Under the pieces are notes generated by a model. It did no database searches and was not told the origin of the DNA. It saw only the letters and a list, made by a program, of their open reading frames with translations. Source: a virus. Taken from it: a DNA stretch of 39,874 nucleotides. This document shows, one piece after another, positions 1 through 39,874 of this stretch. Both the position numbers and the translations under genes were made by a program. Numbering within the stretch: position 1 is the stretch's first letter; each line of letters opens with the position of its first letter. The stretch lies in the IMG/VR virus record IMGVR_UViG_3300044825_003408, positions 1 to 39,874 of that record. One strand, given 5' to 3'.

Positions 1-3000
1 GATCACGCCGCCGTCCCAGTCGCTCCAGGTGTCTACCTCGCCTAGGCGGCTGTCGATTAGGTCGCTGGGGAAGTAGCCGCGGGTGACGAAGTAGCGGCTG
101 AAGTCGATGGAGAACGTGTTGCCGAAATCGACCGTGGTGGCGAAGTCGTAGGTGCCGGAAGGTTGCACCTCGCCCATCACGTCGAAGGTGGGCAGCAGAT
201 CCACGTCCACCACGTCGTCCAGCAAGTCCGAGCCATCCAGCGTTAAGGCATCGAACTCATCGCTATAGAAGGTGTTCGTGCGCGTGCCTTGGAATGGTGG
301 GGTGTCCTGATCTTCGCGGCGGTTGATCAGCGTGAGGGGTGCCAGCGTGTCGGGCAGGTCGACGATGATGCTGGTCTCGCTGGCGCTTTGGCGGCCACCG
401 TCGTCCTCAAATTTGACCAGCACCTCACCTTCCACCAGCGGGATGATGGCCTCGGTGGCGCTGCCCGATTTGGCGGGGATTAGGTCAACGCTGTTGCTCC
501 AGCTGGCTGAGCCGTCGGTCAGATTGCTGTGGCGGATGTGGATCTTGCCGCCAACCTTCACGTCGAGGTCTACGGTTTCGTCCCAGCGCAGACGGCCGGA
601 GTTGGCATTAATGGCCTCAAAGCTCAGGTTCTGAACATTACCAGGGACAGCGGTTTTGCCAACGAGCGAGAATTGGGCAGAAGCGATTGCGCCGCCTTTG
701 TTGACGTAGTTGTACGCCTGAATTTGTACGTAAAGCGTTCCAGGGCGCGTATTAGTGATTTTGATTGAAGGTGAAGTTGTGTTGGTCTGTTGCCAGTTGT
801 CGTTGTCAATGCGGTATTTAACGCGAAACTCAGAAACGCGATCTTTGGGGCTAATCCAGCTAAGGGTGAAGCCAGAAAAAACACTTTGCCCGTCTTGATA
901 AAGGTATTCCGTGCCGTCAATGCTGCTAACTGCGTCTGGCGGGTCGCTGAGGTTACTGATGTCGCGGGCAGTCAGCGTGTTGTCGCTTTCAATCGCGTTG
1001 TAAATGCTGCTGTTGTATTGCAGGGCGGTGACGCCGTAGATGCCGTCTTCAGATTCAGCAACGTTGAGGACGCGGAATTGCTGGGATTCGATGTCGTCGG
1101 TTTGGATGAGCCAGATTGCGTTGACATTGGGTGCTTCGCTAAATGGGTTGCCGACCGTGATGGTGTGGTCGCTGATGGACTGGATCGGGCGGAGTTCGAC
1201 GTTGCCGCTGGGCAGAATTACCGAAATACGTGGGTTGCTTGCCAAATTTACGGACAAGCTGCTGCTGGAATCAACCGTGATGGTGGTTGTGGTGGCAGAA
1301 CTGACGCGACCGCTGCGGCGTGTGCCAGCCTTCATTGGGTCGGCAACGTCAATCACCATGCCCGGACGCAGGATGATGCCGCTGTCGATAGACACAGAGA
1401 AGGTGACAGTTTCAGTCAGGTTTTGTTCGCTCAGCAACGCCCACTTACCAGCGCGGTGCGCTTGACCTTGGCTGTAACAACCTAGGGCTTTGATGTCTTT
1501 GTTGATGATGCCGTATTTGGCTACAGCGTCTGCATCTTCGACGTACTCGTACTCAACTTCGCCGAGAGTGTCGTATGACTGCCAAGCAACAGTTGCGACG
1601 CTATGGCGGGCTTTTTGTGATGTGCCGCTGTAAACAAAAATGCCATCGACGACGTTGCTTGGTCCCAGCAGATATTGCGAGTCGGTCGGTTTGTCCTGCT
1701 GGAGCACCAGTGAGCCGGCGCCGTAGTACGCAATGCCACGGAACAGGCTGGTCATCTCTTGGATGACGTTATAAACCTCGTCGCGGCTGTTAATCAGCAG
1801 GTTGCAGGAAAAACGAGGTTCCAAGCCACCTTTGCCGTCGTCAACAAGGGCGTTGCAGTATTGGCTGATGGCGTAGAAGTCGTAGCGATCCAGGCTGCTG
1901 GTGGGAATGCTGGCGCCGTAGCGAGTGTTGGTGAGCAAATCCCAAAGGCACCAAGCTGGATCATTACACCAAGTTGCAGCGCCAAAGGTGCCGTCCCAGA
2001 CGCCGGAATAGGTGACGCGACCTAAGTACGTGGTGGTATCGACAGTGGCGTTGCTGGGCAGTTGAACTTTTTGTCCACGAATCAGATATTTGCGGGTTGG
2101 GATTGAGTCGAACTGGCGGGAATCAAACCGCAGATAACAGAGTGCGCTATTTGGGTAGCGCAGTTTTTCGTCGATGATTTCGGTGTAGCTGAACCAATAA
2201 GTTTGGTTTTGGCGTTTGGTGCTGGATTCGTCGGCGCTTACGCGAATGACTTTGATGTCAACGGGGAACGCACCAGACAGCGAAATCATGTAATCGCGCT
2301 GGTAGCGGTTGCTGGTTTTGCCGCTGATCGTGTCGTCTACAACGGTTGTGTAGCCGCCGGCGTTGTACTGGACTTGGATGCGGACTTGAACGCTGTAACC
2401 AACAATGTCGCCGTCGTCTTCGATGATTTGCAGTGATGGGACTTGTAGCGTGACGCGCACACGATCCACGTCTGAATCGGTGATGGTGCGGACAACTGGA
2501 GTGGCATTAACAACTTCAACGTTGACGGCTTCTTCGCTTTCGGTGCCAATCGCGTTACTGATGTAACTCTGGGCTTGCGTACCAGTGCGAGTGACTACGG
2601 TGTAGCCCTCAAAGTTGGCGTTACCAGCAGCGTCTTTGACGGGTGTGCCTTCTAGGTAGATGCCCTTTTCGCCGTTTTCGATGCCGTCAATTTCGCCTTC
2701 GCACAGCAGATCCAACACACTGGCGTACTGGACGGATTGCAGCGAGTCGTCGGCTTCTGTTGGAGTGCGGCTAGCACCGCCGCCACCACCGCCGCCTTTG
2801 CCACCACCACCGCCTCCGCCGCCGCCAGCACCAGCGATGCCAAGACCCAAGCCAGCGTTGTGAACGCGGATGTTGTTGGCGATGAAGGTGTGGTGGCCTT
2901 CGACCGTCAGGTTGTAGACCGTGCCAGTGCAAAATTCGGTCTTGCCGACGATGGGGCGCAGGTGGTTGTTGGCGTCAACGAGGCAGTCGTCGGAGCCCAG

Positions 3001-3288
3001 CGTGTCGATTTCGACGAAGGCGTTGAACTGGTTTAGAACCCAGTGGTTAGGGGTGGCATCAAGATGCTGTCCGCCCCAGAGCGTGTAGCGGATGACGCGC
3101 TCGTTTTCGTGTTCGTGGACTTTGAGGATCTTGGCTTCATGCAGTCCGCCTGCGTCGTCGAAGCTCAGGACGAGATCGCCAGCCTGCAGTTCATCAATGC
3201 GGCGCGTGCCACCGGGAATTGCGACAAGGGTGTGTCCTAGGAAGCAACCGCCACCGCCACCACCGCCAGAGCCGACAATTCGTGTCAT
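1..3288 (-). CDS. J: Tail-tip / host-specificity protein J (N-terminal 1096 codons, cut by window edge)
   Basis: Tail-tip hub and receptor-contact protein, homologous to lambda gpJ. The frame is open from the ATG at 3288 to base 1 without a stop. After a glycine-rich N-terminus that is interrupted by a Hint domain (residues 15-144), it shows lambda J landmarks: SRTPTEADDSLQS, DLLCEGEIDGIENG, YTEIIDEKLRYPN, GVWDGTFG, AWCLWDLLTNTRYG and GQAHRAGKWAL. The C-terminal part contains fibronectin-III-like segments and ends at the edge with DTWSDWDGGVI. The start overlaps the stop of the gpI homologue by ATGA. The missing C-terminus is probably the fragment at 39529-39874, if the genome is circular. 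The family is certain; whether the protein is auto-processed is inference. Confidence 0.95.
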   Translation of the reverse strand, partial: MTRIVGSGGGGGGGCFLGHTLVAIPGGTRRIDELQAGDLVLSFDDAGGLHEAKILKVHEHENERVIRYTLWGGQHLDATPNHWVLNQFNAFVEIDTLGSDDCLVDANNHLRPIVGKTEFCTGTVYNLTVEGHHTFIANNIRVHNAGLGLGIAGAGGGGGGGGGKGGGGGGGASRTPTEADDSLQSVQYASVLDLLCEGEIDGIENGEKGIYLEGTPVKDAAGNANFEGYTVVTRTGTQAQSYISNAIGTESEEAVNVEVVNATPVVRTITDSDVDRVRVTLQVPSLQIIEDDGDIVGYSVQVRIQVQYNAGGYTTVVDDTISGKTSNRYQRDYMISLSGAFPVDIKVIRVSADESSTKRQNQTYWFSYTEIIDEKLRYPNSALCYLRFDSRQFDSIPTRKYLIRGQKVQLPSNATVDTTTYLGRVTYSGVWDGTFGAATWCNDPAWCLWDLLTNTRYGASIPTSSLDRYDFYAISQYCNALVDDGKGGLEPRFSCNLLINSRDEVYNVIQEMTSLFRGIAYYGAGSLVLQQDKPTDSQYLLGPSNVVDGIFVYSGTSQKARHSVATVAWQSYDTLGEVEYEYVEDADAVAKYGIINKDIKALGCYSQGQAHRAGKWALLSEQNLTETVTFSVSIDSGIILRPGMVIDVADPMKAGTRRSGRVSSATTTTITVDSSSSLSVNLASNPRISVILPSGNVELRPIQSISDHTITVGNPFSEAPNVNAIWLIQTDDIESQQFRVLNVAESEDGIYGVTALQYNSSIYNAIESDNTLTARDISNLSDPPDAVSSIDGTEYLYQDGQSVFSGFTLSWISPKDRVSEFRVKYRIDNDNWQQTNTTSPSIKITNTRPGTLYVQIQAYNYVNKGGAIASAQFSLVGKTAVPGNVQNLSFEAINANSGRLRWDETVDLDVKVGGKIHIRHSNLTDGSASWSNSVDLIPAKSGSATEAIIPLVEGEVLVKFEDDGGRQSASETSIIVDLPDTLAPLTLINRREDQDTPPFQGTRTNTFYSDEFDALTLDGSDLLDDVVDVDLLPTFDVMGEVQPSGTYDFATTVDFGNTFSIDFSRYFVTRGYFPSDLIDSRLGEVDTWSDWDGGVI
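2857..3246 (-). other. Intein-like Hint (HINT/BIL-type) domain inside J
   Basis: Residues 15-144 of J form a self-contained Hint domain. Block A is seen at Cys15 (CFLGHTLVAIPGG, then RRIDELQAGDLVLSFD). Block B has the TxxH motif at residues 79-82 (ATPNHWVLN). Block F is VYNLTVEGHHTFIANN followed by IRVHN, ending in His143-Asn144. At 130 residues there is no room for a homing endonuclease. The residue after Asn144 is Ala, not Cys, Ser or Thr, so canonical splicing is not expected; A-type bacterial intein-like domains have this arrangement and can cleave at either end. It sits between a run of seven Gly and a second Gly-rich tract. The motifs are seen directly; the activity is inference. Confidence 0.9.
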
Positions 3289-3956
3289 ATCAGTTGGTCA
3301 ACGTCAAGGCCGCTGGAGAGAACAGCGGAGCCGATAAACAGGCGCCCATAGGCGATCGGAACTGGTAAACCTTGCTTCGCGGTGTTGACGATGCCAGAGA
3401 ATGTGAAGGACTCGAACTTTGCGGCGTCGCGTCCGCGCTCAAATGAATTTACTGCCGCTGTTGATTGAACAGGAGCCGGTGAAATCGCTTGAGCAATACC
3501 GCCAAGCACCAGCGCAGCCCCCATGCCGCTAAAAGCAACACCCAGACTTGTTAGTGCCCCTGTTGTTCCAGCCGTTCCTGCCGCCGCACCAAAAATACTA
3601 GTTGTGCCAAATAAACCAGCGCCAGGCAATAAAAAAGACAATGCAATCAGACCAACACCAATGCCTATTTGGCTACCTATACCACCTGCGCCAGTCAGTA
3701 CAGGAGTGATGCTAAAAACTTCGCGTTCACTCCAAGGACCGACAATCAACGCTGCGTTTTGTTCGGTAATTTTTTCTTTTCCGAGGGTTACGCGATAGCC
3801 AACGCCGTCTTTTTCGCTATCCAGTAACCACTTTTCAAGGCCGGGAAAGTTGACGCAAAGTGCCTTGAGGGCTTGGGCGGGCGTGTCGGCTTCAAACTGG
3901 AAACGGCACTGACCCAGCTTTTTGCGGAGTGCGCCGTAGACCTTAACGACTTTCAT
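3285..3956 (-). CDS. I: Tail assembly protein, lambda gpI family
   Basis: 223 residues, the same length as lambda gpI as I recall it. The N-terminal half is a ubiquitin-like fold typical of the family (MKVVKVYGALRKKLGQ, then a segment ending in ALIVGPWSEREVF). It is followed by a long hydrophobic, glycine/alanine-rich stretch at about residues 88-165, and ends with PIAYGRLFIGSAVLSSGLD, a typical family end. In lambda, gpI acts with gpK, gpL and gpJ in tail-tip assembly and is not found in the mature tail. It overlaps the gpK homologue upstream by 14 bases and J downstream by four, so translation is probably coupled. Confidence 0.9.
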   Translation of the reverse strand: MKVVKVYGALRKKLGQCRFQFEADTPAQALKALCVNFPGLEKWLLDSEKDGVGYRVTLGKEKITEQNAALIVGPWSEREVFSITPVLTGAGGIGSQIGIGVGLIALSFLLPGAGLFGTTSIFGAAAGTAGTTGALTSLGVAFSGMGAALVLGGIAQAISPAPVQSTAAVNSFERGRDAAKFESFTFSGIVNTAKQGLPVPIAYGRLFIGSAVLSSGLDVDQLI

Positions 3957-4656
3957 GCCGCAGGACTCGGGCGGTGCTCTTCAAATAATAACCGCCGTAC
4001 AGATCACGGCTACTGAGTCGGCCTTGTAGATGGTGCAGGATCAACTGGTCACCCAAATAAATGGCGGCGTGGTTGGGCAGCGGTGATGCAAGCTGCATCA
4101 GGATCGCATCGCCGTACTGCAATTCCTCCAGGAGGATGGGGTAGAAGCCTTCGTTGGCGAAGTTGTCTAGGTATAAATTCTCACCGCGTAGCCAGAACTG
4201 ATCACGGCGGTCGTAGTCGCTCAAATTGAGGCCGAATTCGCGGTTGTACCAGTCGCGGCACAGGCTGTAGCAGTCCACAATCCCAAAAACGAACTCCCGT
4301 CCGACGTAAGGGAGTTCGAAACCGCTGGGTTCGCAGTAGCCCCACTGCTCGGTCTGCGGGTTGATGATGTGCCACGGCAAGCCGGATTTTTCGCAGGCAA
4401 CGCGGTCAGCTTGGGATGGGGCGTGATTGGTCTTGGGGTGGCTATGCACTACAGCTACGATTTCGCCCTGCTCTTCGGCGGTAACGTAGTCAGCCGGGTC
4501 CAGCACAAAGTGTTCGTCTGGTGTTTCGGCCATGTTGCGGCAGGGGAAATACCGCTTGCGGCCTTTGACCACGGCGACCAGGCCGCAGGATTCCCTTGGA
4601 AATTCCGCCTTGGCGTGCTCCAGTGCAGCCTCTTGGATGGATTTGCTGAGTTTCAT
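3943..4656 (-). CDS. K: Tail-tip assembly protein K: JAB/MPN peptidase plus NlpC/P60 domain
   Basis: 237 residues with two enzyme-like domains. The N-terminal JAB/MPN domain carries the JAMM motif HSHPKTNHAPSQADRVAC at about residues 71-88. The C-terminal NlpC/P60 domain shows the catalytic Cys in GIVDCYSLCRDWY, a His in PNHAAIYLG and a further His pair in LILHHLQG. In lambda-like phages K is a tail-tip protein thought to process a tail protein or cut peptidoglycan during entry. It overlaps gpL upstream by ATGA and gpI downstream by 14 bases. Both metal and Cys/His motifs look intact. Confidence 0.93.
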   Translation of the reverse strand: MKLSKSIQEAALEHAKAEFPRESCGLVAVVKGRKRYFPCRNMAETPDEHFVLDPADYVTAEEQGEIVAVVHSHPKTNHAPSQADRVACEKSGLPWHIINPQTEQWGYCEPSGFELPYVGREFVFGIVDCYSLCRDWYNREFGLNLSDYDRRDQFWLRGENLYLDNFANEGFYPILLEELQYGDAILMQLASPLPNHAAIYLGDQLILHHLQGRLSSRDLYGGYYLKSTARVLRHESR

Positions 4657-5546
4657 TGGGTTAGACCGGCGCCTGGGAAACTTCCGAAGGGCAACTCGGC
4701 GGTTTCACCGAAACGCAATTTGCAGGAACTGAGGCGTTTGCCGCATTTGTCTTGCGCCAGCGTGCCGACCACGTTGTCGTTGGCGTCCCAGTAGTTGCTA
4801 CCGGTGTAGCCGCACTCGGTGCTGCGGTATTTCCACTGGCAGATATTGGCGATGATCTGGCGTTTGGGGATCATCACGCCCGCGAGGTCGAATTTGCTTG
4901 CCAGCTCAAAGCTCACCGAGTCGCGGTTTTCGCTTGCCTTGCGGTCCACGTACCAGACCTCATCTGGGAATTTGGCGTGAGGGTCTGCGGCAGTTTCGCC
5001 GTCGAGGTATTTCTTGAGGGTGCGGATGCGCTTGACGGTGGCGCCACCGAGATCGTTGCCGGGTGTGGTGGCGTTGACCAGCAACAGCAACGTGGTCATG
5101 GTGCCATCCAAGTTGCTGATGGTCAGCGTGGGGCGTGGCAGCGTGCCGGTGTTGCTGTATTCAAAGCCGTCTGCCTTGACGGGCAGGCGGGTGTAGGTAT
5201 TGCCGTTCCAGGTGATGTTGCCGCTGACATTGGCGTTGCAGCCGTTGTGCCAGCGGTAGGTGTCGCTGCTGCCGTGCAGGGTTGTGTCCAGCGTCATTTC
5301 GAACAGTTCGATAATGGCGCTCGGTGCCAGTGCAGCCAGCTCCTCGTAGACGCTGCTAATCGCCGTCCAGACAACCGTGCCATCGGTGATGGTGCTGCCA
5401 ATGTCAGTTGGCCAAGCGGGTTGGATACTGGAGCTGGTGCCAGCTGTGGTGCATTGGAAGACAAGGCCGGATGCCTGCAGGCTGCTAGCGCGGACAATAT
5501 CGCCAACAACGTATGCGGTTGAACTAGCCCAAGCCGAGTACGCCAT
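4653..5546 (-). CDS. L: Minor tail protein, lambda gpL family, with extra N-terminal binding-type module
   Basis: 297 residues, longer than lambda gpL (232 as I recall). The C-terminal domain has four cysteines at 236, 245, 268 and 275, matching the iron-sulfur-binding Cys pattern of gpL. The central part (FEYSNTGTLPRPTLTISN, LDGETAADPHAKFPDEVWYV) is typical of the family. The first ~60 residues (AWASSTAYVVGDIV, FQCTTAGTSSS, DGTVVWTA) form an added module that resembles the small Trp/Gly carbohydrate-binding-like repeats common in phage tail fibres. It lies between gpM and gpK with one- and four-base overlaps. The metal site is inferred from cysteine spacing. Confidence 0.9.
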   Translation of the reverse strand: MAYSAWASSTAYVVGDIVRASSLQASGLVFQCTTAGTSSSIQPAWPTDIGSTITDGTVVWTAISSVYEELAALAPSAIIELFEMTLDTTLHGSSDTYRWHNGCNANVSGNITWNGNTYTRLPVKADGFEYSNTGTLPRPTLTISNLDGTMTTLLLLVNATTPGNDLGGATVKRIRTLKKYLDGETAADPHAKFPDEVWYVDRKASENRDSVSFELASKFDLAGVMIPKRQIIANICQWKYRSTECGYTGSNYWDANDNVVGTLAQDKCGKRLSSCKLRFGETAELPFGSFPGAGLTQ

Positions 5547-18592: not shown

Positions 18593-19168
18593 ATGTCTGA
18601 CATGTCTGATGTGAAAGAATTCATCGACATGGCAGCGCGGTATCCGCTGTTGACCCAGCAGCAAGAGATCGAGCTTGGGCGGCGCATCCAGCTGTGGCTG
18701 AAGCATCCTGACCCCCCGCGAGGACTGGTCAGGTCAGGTCGGCGCGCCCGTGATCAGTTCGTGTGCTGCAACCTGCGTCTCGTAGTGGCAGTTGCTAAGA
18801 AGTACCTCAGGCGCATTTCGGGCACGAGCATTACCTTTGCCGATCTGCTCCAGGAAGGCACGATCGGCCTTCAGCGTGCGGCTGAAAAATACGACCCTGA
18901 ATGCGGCTACAAGATGTCCACCTACGCATATTGGTGGATCCGCCAGTCGATCACCAGGTCGATTGATATGAAAACCGGCATGATCCGGATCTCCAGCGGC
19001 GCCAAGCGCAAGCTCCAAAAGTTCCGTGAAGCAGCGGCAGAAGGTGGCACGGTTGAACAGATCCTTGACCGAGCTGGGCTGACTCAGCGTGATTTGAAGA
19101 TAGTCGAGCAGGCCAGCATCTGTTACAAGGTGACCTGCTTGGACGGGCTCGATCTCAACGCGATCTGA
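18593..19168 (+). CDS. Sigma-70 family protein lacking region 4
   Basis: 191 residues. Region 1.2 (RYPLLTQQQEIELGRRIQLWL) and region 2 (CCNLRLVVAVAKKYLRRISG, FADLLQEGTIGLQRAAEKYD, GYKMSTYAYWWIRQSITRSI) are clear; part of region 3 follows (SGAKRKLQKFREAAAEGG, LDRAGLTQRDLKIVEQA). The chain stops before regions 3.2 and 4, so it would bind core and -10 DNA but not a -35 element. It is related to the full-length sigma at 33130-33999. It may direct late transcription with an accessory factor, or act as a competitor; both are inference. It stands alone on the plus strand and ends against a convergent gene. Confidence 0.9.
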   Translation: MSDMSDVKEFIDMAARYPLLTQQQEIELGRRIQLWLKHPDPPRGLVRSGRRARDQFVCCNLRLVVAVAKKYLRRISGTSITFADLLQEGTIGLQRAAEKYDPECGYKMSTYAYWWIRQSITRSIDMKTGMIRISSGAKRKLQKFREAAAEGGTVEQILDRAGLTQRDLKIVEQASICYKVTCLDGLDLNAI

Positions 19169-21749: not shown

Positions 21750-23660
21750 TCATACTGATTGTCTCCATATTGTCTTGAACTCTCCCGATAGATCCTTACG
21801 TGTCTTATAATATCCGAGTGATCTCAGGATCCGGTTCACCCTTGTAAGTGTTGTATGGTTCTGGCGCTCCAACGGAATCTCCAGACAGTCGGTCAGAATA
21901 TCGCTGCTGAGTATGTATTCCAGGCGCCGAATCGATAGCCACACAGTGATCTTGTCGCGCCAGGCATCCTCTGCATACATGCCTCGGTTGCGGGCATTGT
22001 TGACTTCTGTCTCCTGCTCATCGAGAAACCATTTCGCCCCCGCCAGATAGTCACGGCGAGCGCTGCTCCAGATCCTGTCGCGCAAATCCTCGATCTTTTC
22101 AGAATCGATCTTCTTCTCCACTGTGTAGATCACAAACCGGCGGTTGCCGGTCTCATCGGAGAAGAAGCCATCATGCTTGTTGGTCGTGCCACAGAGCACG
22201 AACTGCCGCGGCCTCTCCTGGTGCCCTTTGCCGTATGCCTCGCGCACAAGATCCGTCTTGCGGGTGATGAAATTCTTCAGCCCAGCCGATTCGTGGTTCT
22301 TGATCCCACCGTCCAACTCGCCCCATTCCGCGATCCAGCGCATATGCAGGCCCACGATGTCGTCTGCATCCTTGTTGGACTTGATGAAACCCTCATAGAA
22401 CCAGGGCTCGCTGGCCAGGGTGTTGTAGAAGCGTGTCTTGTGCAGGTGCTGGTCGCCAGCCAAGATGTGCACGAAGCCGCAAGGGCAGCCCGGCTCATAG
22501 ATGCGAGCCACAGCAAAGATCAGCCATTTGCGCAGAGCGCTGTTGTCGAAGTCATGTGCATCGCCACCGAGGAGCTCGCCCGCAATATTCGCCCACACCG
22601 CGTCAGGCAGCGGATCCGTGCAGGTGTCGAGGTATTGCCGGATCGGGTGGTAGGGGCGATCGCAGGCTGCACGCAACAGTGCATCCTGCGCAGTCTGGGT
22701 TTGCACATCGATGCCGCTGTGCTGCAGGTCGATGTAGGCCAGGCGCAGCGCGGTCTCGTCCATGCAGGTGCCGTCGATCTCGATGGCACGTTTCAGGGTA
22801 TTGAACCGGAGGGCACCACCCAGACCATTGTCGATGATGTGCTTGAGCTCCAGCCCGCGGGGCTTGACCAGGCGCCCAGTGTCTGTGTGGTGCTGCCCCA
22901 GGCGCTCATACCAGGGCAGCTGCGGCAGTGTGGGACCCTCCATCCGCACAGCACCGCGCAGGGCATCCTTGGTGGCACCGTCTGCGATCCAATCCGCGAT
23001 GTCGTATCCGTCGCTCGGATCATCCCAGGCGTCACCGTTTGAAGGCTGCGGCCAGAGCCACCTGGACCCAGGGAATGCCGCGGCCAGACGCTGCATGAGC
23101 TCGATCCCAGGGCGGTCCCTATCTGGGCAGAGGATCAGGCGGTTGGCAACAAATTTGGGCAGGTCGGGCATCTTGGACTTCCAAGAACCGCTGCCGTTGG
23201 GCACAGATGTGACGTGCAGGTCCATCGCCCGCAGGGCCTCAGCGCAGGTCTCGCCCTCGACCACAAACACCGTGGCACCGGACTCGGGCAGATCCTCATA
23301 CCACAGCGGCAGCAGGTCATCTGTCTTCGTGCCCTTGGACCAGGACACATCCTTGGGGCCATACGTGTAATCGATGCGGCGGTGCAGACTGCGCTTGCCC
23401 GCGGGGGTGAAATATTCCCACTGCCTGGTGCGGACAATCTCGCGCTCGGTATGACGCTTGAATGTCACACACTCGGCATCATCGTTGATCTTCACGCATG
23501 CCCAGCCATCTGCCACGATCTCGCCCACTTTCAGGTGCGGGTGGCGCTGCATCGGGCTGCAGGAATTGCCGATGCGGCAATAGAGCAGGTCATCCTCCCA
23601 CTTGCAGCCACTCGACGTGCGGCCACAGACAGGACAGGGCGTTCTCGTGCTCGAGAGCAT
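21750..23660 (-). CDS. Replicative primase-helicase: zinc finger, Toprim, VirE/D5-like ATPase
   Basis: 636 residues from the ATG at 23660; a GTG at 23708 lies in a hairpin loop and is less likely. Zinc-binding region with Cys9, Cys12, Cys28 and Cys34 (PCPVCGRTSSGC, LLYCRIGNSC). Toprim core: VFVVEGETCAEALRAMD (about residues 145-161) and LILCPDRDRPGIE with the D-x-D pair. The C-terminal half is a VirE-type P-loop ATPase (ILAGDQHLHKTRFYNTLAS, MRWIAEWGELDG, RQFVLCGTTNKHDGFFSDET, GNRRFVIYTV). The Walker A reads GDQHLHKTR, the degenerate form seen in this family. It would prime and unwind phage DNA. No polymerase domain is present. Confidence 0.9.
   Translation of the reverse strand: MLSSTRTPCPVCGRTSSGCKWEDDLLYCRIGNSCSPMQRHPHLKVGEIVADGWACVKINDDAECVTFKRHTEREIVRTRQWEYFTPAGKRSLHRRIDYTYGPKDVSWSKGTKTDDLLPLWYEDLPESGATVFVVEGETCAEALRAMDLHVTSVPNGSGSWKSKMPDLPKFVANRLILCPDRDRPGIELMQRLAAAFPGSRWLWPQPSNGDAWDDPSDGYDIADWIADGATKDALRGAVRMEGPTLPQLPWYERLGQHHTDTGRLVKPRGLELKHIIDNGLGGALRFNTLKRAIEIDGTCMDETALRLAYIDLQHSGIDVQTQTAQDALLRAACDRPYHPIRQYLDTCTDPLPDAVWANIAGELLGGDAHDFDNSALRKWLIFAVARIYEPGCPCGFVHILAGDQHLHKTRFYNTLASEPWFYEGFIKSNKDADDIVGLHMRWIAEWGELDGGIKNHESAGLKNFITRKTDLVREAYGKGHQERPRQFVLCGTTNKHDGFFSDETGNRRFVIYTVEKKIDSEKIEDLRDRIWSSARRDYLAGAKWFLDEQETEVNNARNRGMYAEDAWRDKITVWLSIRRLEYILSSDILTDCLEIPLERQNHTTLTRVNRILRSLGYYKTRKDLSGEFKTIWRQSV
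22656..22663. repeat. HIP1 palindrome
   Basis: GCGATCGC within the primase-helicase gene; fourth of five copies. Confidence 0.7.
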
Positions 23661-23687
23661 GGTAAAATAATTCGAAGAGCAGGATTC

Positions 23688-23719
23688 GACCCCGGCTTGG
23701 GCTGGCACCCACCGGGGTC
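23688..23719 (-). promoter_or_regulatory. RNA hairpin between nuclease stop and primase start
   Basis: GACCCCGG (23688-23695) pairs with CCGGGGTC (23712-23719), with an inner TGGG/CCCA stem (23698-23701, 23708-23711), a two-base bulge and a CTGGCA loop. It begins at the nuclease stop codon. There is no T-run, so it is not a typical terminator; it could attenuate or protect the primase mRNA. Confidence 0.55.
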
Positions 23720-24098
23720 ATTCCGTATATGACACGGTAACACGATCCGAAAGGAGCGTCACAGCATCTTCAACGGAGCGTGCCACGCCTGCAACACCAC
23801 CGGCGCAGCGCAGGCGATCCAAAAAGTGCAGCTGGTCCTCGCGAACCTTGCCTGTGGGCGTTTTGATCTCGATGCCGCAGAAGACGGCCACCTTGGAGCC
23901 GACCATATCGGGCGTGATCTCGACGGTCTTCCAGCCCACAAGATCGGGCGAGCCTGGGTGCAGACCAAACTGCACCATCCGACCGTTGGCATCACGCAGA
24001 GCGCCGCAGTGATTCCGAAAAATCGTGGAGCTTGGGCATTTAGCCGAGAGCGCCAGGCGAATTTCGTTTTGCAGGACAGTCTCTGGCTGTGCACCCAT
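23718..24098 (-). CDS. VRR-NUC domain nuclease
   Basis: 126 residues. Short stand-alone VRR-NUC (PD-(D/E)XK superfamily): N-terminal ETVLQNEIRLALSAKCPSST, then VQFGLHPGSPDLVGW with the catalytic Asp, CGIEIKTPTGKVREDQLHFL with the E-x-K, and LRCAGGVAGVARSVEDA. Phages often place such nucleases beside the replicative helicase; they may act on recombination or replication intermediates. The catalytic triad looks complete. Confidence 0.9.
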   Translation of the reverse strand: MGAQPETVLQNEIRLALSAKCPSSTIFRNHCGALRDANGRMVQFGLHPGSPDLVGWKTVEITPDMVGSKVAVFCGIEIKTPTGKVREDQLHFLDRLRCAGGVAGVARSVEDAVTLLSDRVTVSYTE

Positions 24099-25669: not shown

Positions 25670-27037
25670 TCACTTGCGCGACTTCATCACCGCGTAGGCC
25701 CAGCCCGGCTTGTACCCGCGGTCCTTGGCGATTTGCAGCAGTTCCTCGAGGGTACGTGCTTTACCAACCTCTTTGCGCTTGTTCTTTGTAGCAGTTCTTT
25801 CCTCGGCTGCAGCACGCCGGGTGTCCACCTCTACTAGATCTGCCTTGACTTCCTTAGGCATCTCGCGATCTACCGCATGCACATGCCCGCAGAACGGGCA
25901 GACGGCGGCAGGTCGGTGGACCCCATAGCACGACGGACAGATGCGAACGGCAACAGCGCGCAGGTCACTGCGGCTCTTGGGCGCGATGCCCTGCAGGCTC
26001 CAGGGGCGCACGTCACAGGGCAACCCATGTGTTTGGGAATTGCCAGCGCAGTCCAATATCACGGCCTCGCGGTCTGAGGGCCTGAGGGCGCGCCCGACTT
26101 GCTGCAGATACACGCTGAGCGATGCCGTAGGGCGCAGCAAGATGGCGCAATCGCAGGCGGGCACATCGAAGCCTTCAGATATCAGATCAACGGATACCAG
26201 CACCCGCACATCGCCAGATTTGAAAGCATCAAGCCTGGCAGCACGCTCGGCGGCAGACAGGGTGCCATCAACGGAGGCCGCGGCCACGCCAGCTTCGTTG
26301 AATGCACCGCAGGTGAGCTCGGCATGCTTGATCGACGTGCAAAATGCGATCGCACGACGGTCAGGTGCATACTTCTTGAAGTTCTGCACAGCGCTATAGA
26401 GCACCCGCGATTCGATCATGCGCTCCTCGATCTGCTCGACCCTGTAATCACCAGCCCGTTTCGACAGACCAGACAGATCGGCGCCCGTAGGTGGTGCATA
26501 GAGCTTGTAACGCGACAGATGACCCATCTCCATGAGCCTGGCCACAGATGGACCCTCCACCAACGCATCGAAGGAGTCGGACAGGCCTTTGCCGTCCAGT
26601 CGCTGGGGTGTGGCCGTCCAACCCAGCACGTGGGCATTGGAGTAGCCATCGAGCACTTGCTTCCAAGACCGCGCCGCACAGTGATGCGCCTCATCGACGA
26701 TCAGCAGATTGGGCGACCAGGGAAACGCCTTTAGGCGGCGCGCTGCCGAATGGATCGACGCGACCTGCACCTGCGCGTGCACGACAGGATGGCCCGGCGC
26801 GATCACACCGTGTGGCACATCCATAACCGTGAGCCGCGCAGACGTCTGGGCAATCAGCTCGCTGCGGTGCACCAGGATGAGCACATTGTGGTTGCGGTAT
26901 GTGCTCAGCTGGGCAATAGTGCAGAACGTGTGCGTCTTGCCAGCGCCAGTGGGCAATACCGCCAAGATCCGCCGGTGATCCTGCAGTTCAGCTCGGATTT
27001 GGTCAATCAAATCGATTTGGTACGTGCGCAGGCCCAT
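25670..27037 (-). CDS. SF2 DEAD/DEAH-box helicase with C-terminal zinc ribbon
   Basis: 455 residues from the ATG at 27037. Helicase motifs in order: Q-like RTYQIDLID, Walker A PTGAGKT (29-35), LVHRSELIAQT, DEAH in LIVDEAHHCAA (about 114), TAT in LGWTATPQRL, then domain 2 with AIAFCTSIKHAEL, VSVDLISEGFDVPAC and QQVGRALRPSD. A zinc ribbon follows (CPSCYGVHRPAAVCPFCGH) and a basic C-terminal tail. It resembles the stand-alone SF2 helicases of phage replication or recombination modules. 98 bases of intergenic DNA follow it. Confidence 0.93.
   Translation of the reverse strand: MGLRTYQIDLIDQIRAELQDHRRILAVLPTGAGKTHTFCTIAQLSTYRNHNVLILVHRSELIAQTSARLTVMDVPHGVIAPGHPVVHAQVQVASIHSAARRLKAFPWSPNLLIVDEAHHCAARSWKQVLDGYSNAHVLGWTATPQRLDGKGLSDSFDALVEGPSVARLMEMGHLSRYKLYAPPTGADLSGLSKRAGDYRVEQIEERMIESRVLYSAVQNFKKYAPDRRAIAFCTSIKHAELTCGAFNEAGVAAASVDGTLSAAERAARLDAFKSGDVRVLVSVDLISEGFDVPACDCAILLRPTASLSVYLQQVGRALRPSDREAVILDCAGNSQTHGLPCDVRPWSLQGIAPKSRSDLRAVAVRICPSCYGVHRPAAVCPFCGHVHAVDREMPKEVKADLVEVDTRRAAAEERTATKNKRKEVGKARTLEELLQIAKDRGYKPGWAYAVMKSRK
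26346..26353. repeat. HIP1 palindrome
   Basis: GCGATCGC within the SF2 helicase gene; fifth of five copies. Confidence 0.7.
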
Positions 27038-27073
27038 CACCGCAAATCCCCAAACAACGTGTCTTTTGTTGAG

Positions 27074-27430: not shown

Positions 27431-27780
27431 CGCGATGCCTCCTGCTCGAGCAGGTCTGCGAATGTCCCCGCATATTGCATCCGGCTGTTGCGCAGCCATT
27501 CGGCCACTTCACGGATTGCTGCGGCTGCTTCTGTGTCATAGCCAAAATCGCCATCAGCACGAGCCATAGCAGATGCGACCCGCCGCACCAATGAACGACC
27601 TGGCTTGGCGGCATAAGCATCTGTGACTACATTTTTCACAGCAGCGTGGATACCGGCGCCGAGTTCGAGCCTCTCGATTCTGTCGCGCAGCTCGAGGATG
27701 CAGGCAGATCCGCCGCTATCTTTTGACGACCAAAAGATCACCTCTGCCCACTGCTTTTCAGTTGCTTTGAATCCAGACAT
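27427..27780 (-). CDS. Hypothetical protein
   Basis: 117 residues (MSGFKATEKQWAEVIFWSSK, ACILELRDRIERLELGAG). The N-terminal part, 'ATExQWAxV...ACILELRDRI', recurs in cyanophage proteins as far as I recall. The C-terminal part is helical (DTEAAAAIREVAEWLRNSRM). ATGA overlap with dcd upstream and GTGA overlap downstream. Function unknown. Confidence 0.75.
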   Translation of the reverse strand: MSGFKATEKQWAEVIFWSSKDSGGSACILELRDRIERLELGAGIHAAVKNVVTDAYAAKPGRSLVRRVASAMARADGDFGYDTEAAAAIREVAEWLRNSRMQYAGTFADLLEQEASR

Positions 27781-28355
27781 CAGACGATCGGCAGGGTGAC
27801 TTGTTCTTGCTGGCCTTGATATTTACCACAGCGGTCCTGATAGGTCGTGTCGCAGGGCTCGCCCTCGAGGAATAGCAGCTGGCAGACGCCTTCGTTTGCG
27901 TAGATGCGGCAGTCAGCACCGCTGGAGTTGCTGAATTCCAGGGTCAAGTGGCCGCTCCAGCCAGCCTCAGCAGGGGTCACATTCACTATGATGCCCATGC
28001 GGGCGTAGGTGGATTTGCCAACGCAGATCGCCGTGACGTTGCCTGGCATCTGAAGACGCTCCAGAGCCACGCCCAGGCCGTAACTGTGGGCGGGCAGTAC
28101 GAACCACATGCCCTCAGTATCGGCGTGCAGCTTGACCTGCTCCAGATTCTGCGGATTGAACCGCTTGGGATCCATCACGGTGCCAGGCACGTGGCGGAAG
28201 ATCTTGAAATCTTTGGGCGACAGGCGCAGATCATATCCGTAGCTGCTACAGCCGTAGCTGAGTGCCGGGATGACTCCGATGTGCCGCTCTAGCTGCGGGA
28301 CCAGCGGGGTGATCAGGCCGGGCGTGCTGCGGATCCAGGCGTCGTTTTTGAGCAT
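27780..28355 (-). CDS. dcd: dCTP deaminase
   Basis: 191 residues, the usual family length. Converts dCTP to dUTP on the way to dTTP. Family motifs: SYGCSSYGYDLRLSP at the N-terminus, CVGKSTYARMGI with the Ser/Arg that contact substrate, VTPAEAGWSGHLTLEFSNSS with the catalytic Glu, and a C-terminal CGKYQGQQ lid. It begins a leftward operon at a divergent promoter region. In a phage that may replace A with Z, extra dTTP supply for Z:T pairs makes sense, but Dcd also occurs in ordinary phages. Confidence 0.95.
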   Translation of the reverse strand: MLKNDAWIRSTPGLITPLVPQLERHIGVIPALSYGCSSYGYDLRLSPKDFKIFRHVPGTVMDPKRFNPQNLEQVKLHADTEGMWFVLPAHSYGLGVALERLQMPGNVTAICVGKSTYARMGIIVNVTPAEAGWSGHLTLEFSNSSGADCRIYANEGVCQLLFLEGEPCDTTYQDRCGKYQGQQEQVTLPIV

Positions 28356-30263: not shown

Positions 30264-30490
30264 TGGCTTTTTATGAAGCAGATGAACTGCGCCGTATTGC
30301 CGATCTGATCGACCGGTTCCCCAAATTCATCCGGCGCGATAAAGGCAAAGTGTCTGTGCACGAAGCCATTAGCGGTATCCTCAATCGGCACCACATTTAC
30401 AACGCGGCGCTCGAAATCGAGCTTGAACAGCTCACTGAAGACTACCGCCAGACCATCGCCAACTACTACGAACGCCAATTCGGAGCATGA
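30263..30490 (+). CDS. Hypothetical protein upstream of purZ
   Basis: 75 residues (MAFYEADELRRIADLIDRFP, KGKVSVHEAISGILNRHHIY, then ALEIELEQLTEDYRQTIANY). All helical. One-base overlap with the upstream stop and four-base overlap with purZ, so co-translated with the Z cassette. No family recognised. Confidence 0.75.
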   Translation: MAFYEADELRRIADLIDRFPKFIRRDKGKVSVHEAISGILNRHHIYNAALEIELEQLTEDYRQTIANYYERQFGA

Positions 30491-31578
30491 GATCCGTCGA
30501 AGTCATCATGGATGGCCAGTACGGATCAACCGGCAAGGGCCTCTTTGCCGGTTATCTGGCATCCAAACACAATCCCGAAGTTCTGGCCTGCGCGCTTTCG
30601 CCCAACGCTGGACACACCCTGATCCTCGAAGACGGCACCAAACTGGTGCACCGGATGCTGCCACTCGGCATAGTGTCAGACAGCCTGCACACAATCGTGC
30701 TCGGCCCTGGCAGCCTGATAGATCTCGATGCCCTCTGGGAAGAGGTCCAGAATGCTGAGATGCTTGGCTTGCTGTCTGAGTCTGTGCGCATCTGCGTGCA
30801 TCAGAACGCAGCAGTGGTGACCAACCGTCACCGCGATGCAGAATCAGATGGCGGCACTGCGCCAGGCTCTACCCGCAAAGGGGTCGGCGCGGCTCAGATC
30901 GAGCGGATTCGCCGCAAGCCCGATAAAAACAACATCATTGGGCTGATGCAGCCGGTACATCCGGTGTTTGATCGCATCACGCTGGCGAGCACCCATGAGC
31001 TCCAGCGCATCTACTTGGAGGCCAACCGCATCCAGGTGGAAGGGTGCCAAGGTTACAGCCTGAGCATCTATCACGGTCAGTATCCGTATGTCACCTGCCG
31101 TGATGTGTCCACTTACAGCCTGCTCGCAGACTGTGGTATGCCGTACATGCGCTGGTCTGCAGTGACTGTCTATGGCGTATTCCGCACGTATCCCATTCGT
31201 GTGGCCAACCGACCTACTTCTGGCGAGTGGAGCGGCCCGACATACCCAGACTCGCAGGAAACCACCTTCGAGGCGATCGGACAGGCCCAGGAGCTCACCA
31301 CGGTGACTCAGCTCCCACGGCGCATCTTCACATTTAGCCACCAGCAGGCGATCGAATCCTGTGTGCAGAACAAGGTCGATTTCATCTTCCTGAACTTCGC
31401 ACAGTATTGCACCAGTTGGAAGGATCTGCGCGATCTGTGGCTCAGGCTCAATGAATGCTCGATGGTCTCGTACCTCGGCTTCGGTCCCAAAATCGACGAC
31501 ATCGTGCGCGTCGGCTCACCCAACATCACAGAGGAACATGTCCGAGAAATCTACGAGCGTGCACGAGCTGCAGGCTGA
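30487..31578 (+). CDS. purZ: PurZ: dGMP-specific adenylosuccinate-synthetase-like enzyme (2-aminoadenine pathway)
   Basis: 363 residues, shorter than cellular PurA (about 430). PurZ joins aspartate to dGMP to give the precursor of 2-amino-dAMP. N-terminus MDGQYGSTGKG: Ser14 stands where PurA has its catalytic Asp (GxQWGDEGKG), the diagnostic PurZ change. Retained motifs: SPNAGHT with His43, PGSLIDLDALWEE, GSTRKGVGAAQIERI, and EGCQGYSLSIYHGQYPYVTC. The C-terminal base-binding segment LPRRIFTFS departs from the PurA RRCGWFD pattern. It is followed by mazZ and datZ, the known partners. Function is inferred with high confidence from this combination. Confidence 0.93.
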   Translation: MRSVEVIMDGQYGSTGKGLFAGYLASKHNPEVLACALSPNAGHTLILEDGTKLVHRMLPLGIVSDSLHTIVLGPGSLIDLDALWEEVQNAEMLGLLSESVRICVHQNAAVVTNRHRDAESDGGTAPGSTRKGVGAAQIERIRRKPDKNNIIGLMQPVHPVFDRITLASTHELQRIYLEANRIQVEGCQGYSLSIYHGQYPYVTCRDVSTYSLLADCGMPYMRWSAVTVYGVFRTYPIRVANRPTSGEWSGPTYPDSQETTFEAIGQAQELTTVTQLPRRIFTFSHQQAIESCVQNKVDFIFLNFAQYCTSWKDLRDLWLRLNECSMVSYLGFGPKIDDIVRVGSPNITEEHVREIYERARAAG

Positions 31579-32924: not shown

Positions 32925-33130
32925 CCCGCACACGCACCCGTTTTCTGATCACCGTTGGTGATTTGTATCTGGCCGACCCAGCGCCGGATGACAGCGGCAT
33001 CAGGCTGACAAACAATGAGCTTGCCGCTTTAAAATTCGTGACATTCGAACGCGCATGTCATGTCGCCAAAGTGGCGGCTGCGCGCACCGAATTTGAGCCA
33101 CGCGTTCTCAGCTGCGAATTCGACTACTGA
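32921..33130 (+). CDS. Hypothetical protein
   Basis: 69 residues (MTRTRTRFLITVGDLYLADP, then NNELAALKFVTFERACHVAK). Beta-rich start, one central helix. ATGA overlap with the NTP-PPase and one-base overlap with the sigma factor. Not recognised. Confidence 0.7.
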   Translation: MTRTRTRFLITVGDLYLADPAPDDSGIRLTNNELAALKFVTFERACHVAKVAAARTEFEPRVLSCEFDY

Positions 33131-33999
33131 TGTCTACCGCATTTGACGACTTTCTCGAGAATATTGGCCGATATCCGTTGCTCACTCCAACGGAGGAAAT
33201 CGAGCTTGCCAGGCAGATTCAGGCCTGGTTGCCGCTGCGCAAGCGGACCAAACTGAGCAAATCGGAACAGCGCACTGCGATGATTGGGCGCCGTGCGTAT
33301 GACAAATTCTTCTGTGCCAATCTGCGGTTGGTGGTCTTCGCTGCCAAGCGCTACATGATCAAATCCAAGTCGATGACTATTGATGATCTGGTGCAAGAAG
33401 GTTGCATGGGCCTCGCACGCAGCATCGAGAAGTTCGACCCGGAAAGAGGCTACAAATTTAGCACCTATGCATACTGGTGGATAAGGCAGTCTATTGCCAG
33501 GGGGCTCGAGGCATATGATCGCATGATCAAGCTGCCGGTGGTCGGCGTCCAGACGCTGGGCAAGCTGCGCAAATTCACCCTGGAGTTTTATCGAGAAAAG
33601 GGCAGATATCCAAGCAAAGCCGAATGCATCGAGCACTGCGACGTATCTGTGCACCTGTTCAATGCGTATATCGCGCATATGGATGGTTGCTCATCCCTCA
33701 ATGCCAAGTGCAATACCGAAGAGCACGCCAGTGAGCTCATAGATGTTGTCATCGACCATGACCGGTCTTTGGAAGAATCGATCGAACGCAGCATGATGCA
33801 CGAGCATCTGCAGCGTTGGATGCTATCGCTGAGTCATGAAGAAAGGGACCTGCTCACCAAGCATTACGGCTTGGATAATTCACCACCGATGTCACTGCAG
33901 GATATCGGCACAGGGATGTTTTTGAGCCGCGAAGCGATCAGACACAAAGAGAATCTGATCATCAATAAGCTGCGCATTAAGGCCAGAGCTTATCAGTAG
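33130..33999 (+). CDS. RNA polymerase sigma factor, full length, cyanobacterial type
   Basis: 289 residues. Region 1.2 (RYPLLTPTEEIELARQIQAWL), region 2 (CANLRLVVFAAKRYMIKSKS, DDLVQEGCMGLARSIEKFD, GYKFSTYAYWWIRQSIARGL), region 3 (LPVVGVQTLGKLRKFTLEFY, EKGRYPSKAECIEH) and region 4 with its HTH (SLQDIGTGMFLSREAIRHKE, NLIINKLRIKA). Group 2/3-like in layout. It ends the plus-strand operon, so it would be made with the replication genes and could redirect host polymerase to late promoters. It overlaps the convergent endolysin gene by seven bases. Confidence 0.93.
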   Translation: MSTAFDDFLENIGRYPLLTPTEEIELARQIQAWLPLRKRTKLSKSEQRTAMIGRRAYDKFFCANLRLVVFAAKRYMIKSKSMTIDDLVQEGCMGLARSIEKFDPERGYKFSTYAYWWIRQSIARGLEAYDRMIKLPVVGVQTLGKLRKFTLEFYREKGRYPSKAECIEHCDVSVHLFNAYIAHMDGCSSLNAKCNTEEHASELIDVVIDHDRSLEESIERSMMHEHLQRWMLSLSHEERDLLTKHYGLDNSPPMSLQDIGTGMFLSREAIRHKENLIINKLRIKARAYQ

Positions 34000-39528: not shown

Positions 39529-39874
39529 TTAGCCTTGCCGTCCATATCCGGTTGCACTCCATGTGAAGTTGCGGGTGATGGGACTGCCGCCGGAGTTATA
39601 GAAGCTGATCGTGAAGCCGGTGCCCGTCACCGAATTGATCTGGAAGTAATCACCTGCCTGCATATTCTGCGCCGTGATGCCCACGCTCGGCAGATAGGCG
39701 TTCAGTCCCCCGATGCTGGCTGTACCAGTGAAGAACGGGTAGGGGAAGATGACTGCCGTGCTGGTAGTGCCGCTTATTGCAGCGGTGCTCTGCTCGGTCC
39801 GGCGTTGGACTGTGGCGAGGTAGCCCAGCTCATCCACGAGGATGTTTTCGGCAACGTCGTTGCTGGTCAGCGTG
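39529..39874 (-). CDS. C-terminal fragment of a J-type tail-tip protein (cut by window edge)
   Basis: 114 codons, open to the right edge. Reads TLTSNDVAENILVDELGYLA, TVQRRTEQSTAAISGT, AVIFPYPFFTGTASIGGLNA and ends with ITRNFTWSATGYGRQG. This is the usual end of a J protein (a 'TSND..ENI.V.ELG' beta strand followed by the receptor-near domain ending in 'GYGR'). It precedes the fibre genes on the same strand. If the molecule is circular it completes the J gene cut at base 1. Confidence 0.82.
   Translation of the reverse strand, partial: TLTSNDVAENILVDELGYLATVQRRTEQSTAAISGTTSTAVIFPYPFFTGTASIGGLNAYLPSVGITAQNMQAGDYFQINSVTGTGFTISFYNSGGSPITRNFTWSATGYGRQG

Follow-up and report, generated by a model that had tools for sequence, protein, structure and literature searches.

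We identified a 130-residue Hint domain at the N-terminus of the tail tip protein J in the IMG/VR virus record IMGVR_UViG_3300044825_003408, of which positions 1 to 39,874 (39,874 nucleotides, hereafter the window) were analysed. Comparative sequence evidence leads us to prefer, over an inert domain or an intein that splices, a pro-domain at the J N-terminus that removes itself; the predicted processing, a cut by the Hint at its own C-terminal end, is judged somewhat more probable than not. Many freshwater, probably cyanobacterial, phages carry on J a Hint whose self-cutting active site is intact. Since near-identical phages exist without it, the domain is more likely to be a mobile front piece that removes itself than an intein of the usual kind.

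Most descriptions of inteins and intein-like domains concern enzymes that act on DNA, or surface proteins and toxins of bacteria. A search of the open-access literature gave no description of such a domain, Hint or intein, in J or a tail tip; relative to that literature, the tail-tip location, the invariant AGL(G) followed by a restored J start, and the variable presence of a domain that passes from one J lineage to another are new. The family is abundant and strictly conserved in a host-recognising structural protein. Closely matched phages that differ in whether J carries the Hint form a natural experiment on the role of the domain, and such pairs make the purpose of bacterial intein-like (BIL) domains directly testable. 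In addition, well over 100 natural variants are available, all of them with Ala at +1, and might be used as self-cleaving tags.

The Hint domain precedes a lambda-type protein J

The J reading frame starts with ATG at position 3288 on the minus strand, is still open at the window start, and reads MTRIVGSGGGGGGG-[CFLGHT...DATPNHW...VYNLTVEGHHTFIANNIRVHN]-AGLGLGIAGAGGGG..., so that the order in J is MTRIVGSGGGGGGG, the 130-residue Hint domain, AGLGLGIAGAGGGGGGGGGKGGGGGGGASRTPTEADDSLQS and the remainder of J (Table 1). Its start codon overlaps the stop codon of gene I (ATGA), and genes I, K, L and M lie upstream in the lambda order. The Hint-bearing protein matched phrog_31, annotated as 'central tail fiber J', as well as lambda J (Table 1) and FNIII-A_GpJ (E 1.6e-40), and also contains Phage-tail_3 and fn3 domains. 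The host protein is unambiguously a lambda-type tail tip protein J, since both the body profile and the neighbours I, K and L fit. Residue 2 of lambda J aligns to residue ~167 of the window J, which places the Hint ahead of canonical J, inside a Gly-rich leader. The original prediction had the Hint interrupting the J N-terminus; its location in the Gly-rich leader stands, but no conserved J sequence is broken, and the domain is an N-terminal addition instead.

Table 1. Coordinates of J, its N-terminal elements and the neighbouring tail genes in the window
Feature	Position	Strand	Evidence
Gene J, tail tip / central tail fibre (first 1096 aa; truncated at the record end)	1..3288	-	phrog_31 E 7e-244, lambda J E 3e-65
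J residues 1-14, MTRIVGSGGGGGGG: leader / N-extein, first copy of motif IxG[AS]-Gly	3247..3288	-	
Hint domain, 130 residues (J 15-144)	2857..3246	-	profiles, PDB search, AlphaFold, structure comparison
Cys1 of Hint (J Cys15), putative N-S acyl shift nucleophile	3244..3246	-	no variation among 160 distinct DNA sequences; encoded by two codons
Block B TxxH (J T79-H82, TPNH)	3043..3054	-	T and H invariant
His143-Asn144, C-terminal His-Asn of Hint	2857..2862	-	invariant in 160 distinct DNA sequences
AGLG, residues +1 to +4 after Hint	2845..2856	-	AGL invariant in 160 distinct DNA sequences; AGLG in 96/96 flank pairs
Second copy of J start motif, IAGA-Gly9-Lys	2797..2838	-	motif in 96/96 distinct filled flanks; matches Hint-less J start
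J body, from RTPTEADDSLQS on	1..2769	-	phrog_31 and lambda J matches
Gene I, tail assembly protein	3285..3956	-	phrog_32 E 1e-41
Gene K, JAB + NlpC/P60 peptidase domains	3943..4656	-	Pfam Prok-JAB 9e-17, NLPC_P60 1e-14
Gene L, minor tail protein	4653..5546	-	Pfam Phage_tail_L 1.4e-55

The last J residues were found at the opposite end of the window (39529-39873), about 40 codons being absent between the two ends in comparison with L005, and the record looks like a nearly complete, permuted genome cut inside J. TerL showed 60% identity to that of Synechococcus phage S-H1 and 59% to that of KBS-S-2A, and a Hint search of 84,980 bacterial and archaeal species genomes gave a single match, on a 7-kb contig of a cyanobacterial MAG. 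Based on the TerL similarity and this lone match, the phage is probably a cyanosiphovirus. Rfam and tRNA searches of the window gave no match.

Fold and classification of the domain

When the domain was searched against Pfam, Intein_splicing (E 2.4e-6), Hint (E 3.5e-5) and PT-HINT (E 1.7e-3) were all under their curated cut-offs, and NCBIfam intein_Cterm scored 20.1 bits (cut-off 15.6). In a profile search of the PDB, the top sequence match was the BIL domain 2lwy (E 1.2e-8), followed by the gp41-1 and RecA mini-inteins. AlphaFold prediction from the single sequence gave a pLDDT of 42, and a 49-sequence alignment was used instead, with which 120 of 159 residues, covering nearly the whole domain, exceeded a pLDDT of 90. 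Near the top of the Foldseek matches to this model were the Tetrahymena BUBL1 BIL2 domain (first, E 8e-11), a DnaB mini-intein and 2lwy, and VIA-align superposed it on 2lwy with a Z score of 20.9 and an rmsd of 1.5 over 132 residues. Based on the model, we are confident that the domain has the HINT fold, but since several inteins gave Z scores in the same range as BILs (about 20-22), the fold cannot separate the two.

The features of A-type BILs were found in the family, namely the predicted HINT fold, the terminal His-Asn in 160/160 DNA sequences, and a +1 residue that is never Cys, Ser or Thr. By these sequence criteria the domain is classed as an A-type BIL-like Hint, and the autocleavage or partial splicing of that class is predicted here; type A BILs undergo thioester hydrolysis or partial splicing (PMC4031507, PMC7664689). 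There is no endonuclease inside the Hint, whose 130 residues are matched in length by all 208 relatives measured. The original prediction had described a 130-residue Hint in J that has the block A Cys, TxxH and a terminal His-Asn, is followed by Ala, is free of an endonuclease and belongs to the A-type BIL class. The domain and the absence of an endonuclease were both borne out, with C15, N144 and 2857-3246 exactly placed, and the class agrees with the sequence features testable here.

Distribution and conservation

A Hint relative was encoded by 443 IMG/VR stretches when one query was used and by 501 with a divergent profile. At every locus examined it occupied the same position at the J N-terminus, a constant spot ahead of the conserved J body yet within the variable Gly-rich leader. 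The insertion originally proposed for a single J is accordingly not unique to it, and J homologues without it were found as well. Among 50,697 isolated phage records, only 8 matches were obtained (E <= 1e-3), annotated as TerL, other proteins or hypothetical, and none was a J. The top fold match in BFVD, a 1016-residue 'putative gp62' of an uncultured virus with 35% identity, may be a deposited relative.

When 160 distinct DNA sequences (146 proteins) were compared, C1, T65, H68, H119, H129, N130, A131, G132 and L133 never varied while synonymous codons were used, with all four Ala codons present at +1. This set had been anchored on Hint motifs, and the count was therefore repeated on loci gathered via the J body alone, some contigs being counted more than once. 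All 128 complete Hint copies among them (118 recognised by a pattern match, the 10 with TANH by eye) keep C1, TxxH, HN and Ala; a further 91 J genes had no Hint and 14 were too incomplete to judge. The dN/dS ratio was about 0.07 in the Hint, compared with about 0.05 in the J body. By these sequence measures, the Hint is under purifying selection and is intact, not decayed. Since the domain is conserved throughout, with 54 of 136 alignment positions invariant, the constancy of the catalytic residues says less than the same finding would in a more divergent family.

The J start motif is present on both sides of the Hint

Past the His-Asn, the sequence continues with AGLG, 1-3 variable residues and IxG[AS]-Gly..Lys-Gly, the last of which is how Hint-less J begins. 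We found the motif I/L/V-x-G-[AGS] in 41/41 distinct Hint-less starts, in 96/96 leaders before the Hint and in 96/96 stretches after it. The Lys-Gly element was found in all 41 Hint-less J and all 96 C-flanks but in only one of the 96 N-flanks. AGLG occurred in each of the 96 distinct flank pairs, as did Gly at -1. When front lengths were measured up to TPxE, the J body was preceded by 27.7 +/- 3.0 residues in Hint-less J (from Met) and by 28.5 +/- 7.2 residues counted from +1 in Hint-bearing J, while a spliced front would measure 42.4 +/- 8.2 residues. These lengths, together with the motif, suggest that cleavage between Asn and Ala would restore a normal J front and that splicing would not. 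The second motif copy and the lengths are comparative evidence on the product and not proof of the reaction. The release of J with a new N-terminus, which had been proposed originally, is in this way favoured indirectly, in that the sequence past the putative cut site rebuilds the normal J start.

In the lineage of L237 (2980-3435), the J start motif takes the unusual form IQGASTGGG on either side of the Hint, although some of the codons differ, and the two copies may therefore have co-evolved or undergone conversion.

These data bear directly on splicing, in which a Cys15 thioester, cyclisation of Asn144 and attack by the Ala145 amine would join residue 14 to 145, and J would keep its Met start and be ~14 residues longer. 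All residues that this reaction needs are invariant, as is the Gly at -1, and type A BILs can splice, with cleavage products dominant (PMC4031507). Against it, the product would have a front of 42 residues, compared with 28 in Hint-less J, and the start motif would occur twice; in addition, the +1 residue is Ala throughout. Cys1 is as conserved as the rest of the site even though pure C-terminal cleavage has no need of it. This is the main counterpoint to a role in cleavage only, and splicing is therefore kept as a serious rival, albeit an improbable one. The first IxGA-Gly copy is also retained in all N-flanks, although the pro-domain model discards that part; the overlap with gene I, combined with recombination with Hint-less alleles, may explain its retention.

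Hint-less alleles and movement of the Hint

Each sampled J clade includes Hint-less J proteins, which read M..IxGA-Gly-Lys-Gly followed by TPTEA or similar, and in DNA alignments the insertion comprises the Hint plus AGLGLGIAGA, with Gly codons on either side. The pairs L008/L108 and L021/L087 have an identical 300-residue J body with and without the Hint, and from the J body onward L021 and L087 are essentially identical at the DNA level for about 1.7 kb. Such Hint-less twins in near-identical phages indicate that the Hint, originally suggested as a possible timer of tail-tip maturation, is not essential for tail assembly in this group.

When a FastTree phylogeny of 165 J bodies was examined, at least 28 state changes were needed, compared with a mean of 45 for shuffled labels; as read from this tree, presence of the Hint is partly inherited and often switched. 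Similarity of the Hint and of the J body also disagree, the Hints of L375/L326 being 100% identical on J bodies 77% alike and those of L117/L033 81% alike on J bodies 94% alike, which indicates that the Hint moves independently of its J. This movement, the Hint-less alleles, the AGLG signature and the doubled J start motif were no part of the original prediction. No second Hint was found elsewhere in three records of Hint-less phages. We infer that exchange via the flanking Gly-codon repeats is the simplest route of transfer.

The alternation of presence and absence among phages with identical J bodies argues against an unreactive folded decoration of the tail tip that is kept in the virion, and such a decoration would have no need of invariant C1, TxxH, HN and AGL together. 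Conservation spanning the whole domain would allow selection on its fold or surface, and flexible Gly linkers could make the precursor tolerable, but we consider this explanation quite unlikely. A plain selfish mini-intein persisting by homing alone is very unlikely: it would suit the repeated gains, losses and exchanges among J lineages, but the domain lacks an internal endonuclease and a +1 nucleophile and sits in a Gly-rich leader instead of a conserved site. A resident homing endonuclease was also sought. HNH genes (PF01844) were present in 18/20 tested records, Hint-less ones included, with no link to the Hint-filled state and none in the window, and no GIY-YIG gene was found. Finally, a Hedgehog- or ubiquitin-like ligation is highly improbable. 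In such a reaction the Gly-Cys thioester would pass the leader MTRIVGSGGGGGGG to an amine on a second protein of the tail tip, and the JAB peptidase K would hydrolyse the product. In its favour, Gly always precedes Cys1, the neighbouring K has JAB and NlpC/P60 domains, and JAB processing of a ubiquitin-like gene I product in tail assembly has been predicted (PMC1779556). Against it, the reaction has no known acceptor, genes of the K and I types occur generally in lambdoid phages (PMC1779556), and no difference was found between the gene I C-termini of Hint-bearing and Hint-less alleles.

Proposed processing of J

Under the favoured self-removing pro-domain, J would be synthesised as leader-Hint-J, the order visible in the sequence. 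Judging from the invariant residues and the fold, Asn144 of the folded Hint, aided by His143, would cyclise and break the bond to Ala145. The leader-Hint fragment would be discarded, and mature J would run from Ala145 and begin with AGLGLG-IAGA-Gly-Lys-Gly, which resembles the start of Hint-less J. By analogy with the A-type BIL family, the Cys15 thioester at the Gly-Cys junction would be mostly hydrolysed and occasionally used for splicing. Since the cut would leave a normal J, a cassette of the Hint plus AGLGxG-IxGA-Gly could be gained or lost harmlessly, and its observed movement would proceed by recombination via the repetitive Gly codons on both sides.

We also put forward, tentatively, a broader possibility, namely a mobile self-erasing BIL-type Hint cassette with a built-in J start that hops among the tail-tip genes of freshwater cyanophages via Gly-codon repeats, always leaving a normal J and perhaps delaying or gating J assembly until the self-cut. 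In lambda structures, the J N-terminal region adjoins gpL and contacts gpI (PMC10721106), and a 130-residue extension on three J copies may matter for the order of assembly.

Comparison with known systems

The BUBL1 BIL2 domain of the ciliate Tetrahymena is flanked by ubiquitin-like domains. This top Foldseek match (PDB 6y75, 6tmm) is likewise a BIL-type Hint, but it differs from the J Hint in that no tail protein flanks it. The A-type BIL of Clostridium thermocellum (PDB 2lwy) shares the HINT fold, Cys1, His-Asn, and the lack of both a +1 nucleophile and an endonuclease. Known A-type BILs occupy variable regions of non-conserved bacterial proteins (PMC7765530), a trait that describes them without bearing on catalysis. 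The J Hint, by contrast, has a constant position in a tail protein that is conserved among phages, is followed by an invariant AGL past the putative cut site, and shows presence and absence within one phage population.

Canonical class 1 mini-inteins (gp41-1, DnaB, RecA) have the fold and the conserved blocks up to His-Asn in common with the J Hint. We rejected this class, as position 1 Cys, TxxH and His-Asn are present but all members have Ala at +1, the insertion does not lie in a conserved active site, and removal would not be precise, the joined flanks leaving ~14 residues more than Hint-less J and hence no seamless J. A class 3 intein, which has no N-terminal nucleophile and uses the internal Cys of a WCT motif, was ruled out by the invariant Cys1. 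Inteins of phages and cyanophages have been reported in TerL, RNR and dCTP deaminase. PT-HINT of polymorphic toxins (PF07591), whose self-cleavage is proposed to free the downstream part (PMC3482391), matched the J Hint weakly, residues past His-Asn included (E 0.0017), and was rejected as well, since the score of 19.0 bits is under the cut-off of 27.7 and the Hint heads a tail protein, with the J body and not a toxin after it.

Other features of the window

Two sigma-70-like ORFs were recognised by eye in this one small phage genome, at 18593-19168 (+), adjoining terL, and at 33130-33999 (+); an RpoD-type sigma factor is annotated in the related cyanophage KBS-S-2A too. A VapE-like domain protein is encoded at 21750-23708 (-), and the genes in its vicinity include those of a VRR-NUC nuclease (23718-24098) and of a ResIII-type helicase (25670-27040). 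An adenylosuccinate synthetase-like ORF at 30487-31578 (+) and a dCTP deaminase-like ORF at 27780-28355 (-) were also recognised by eye.
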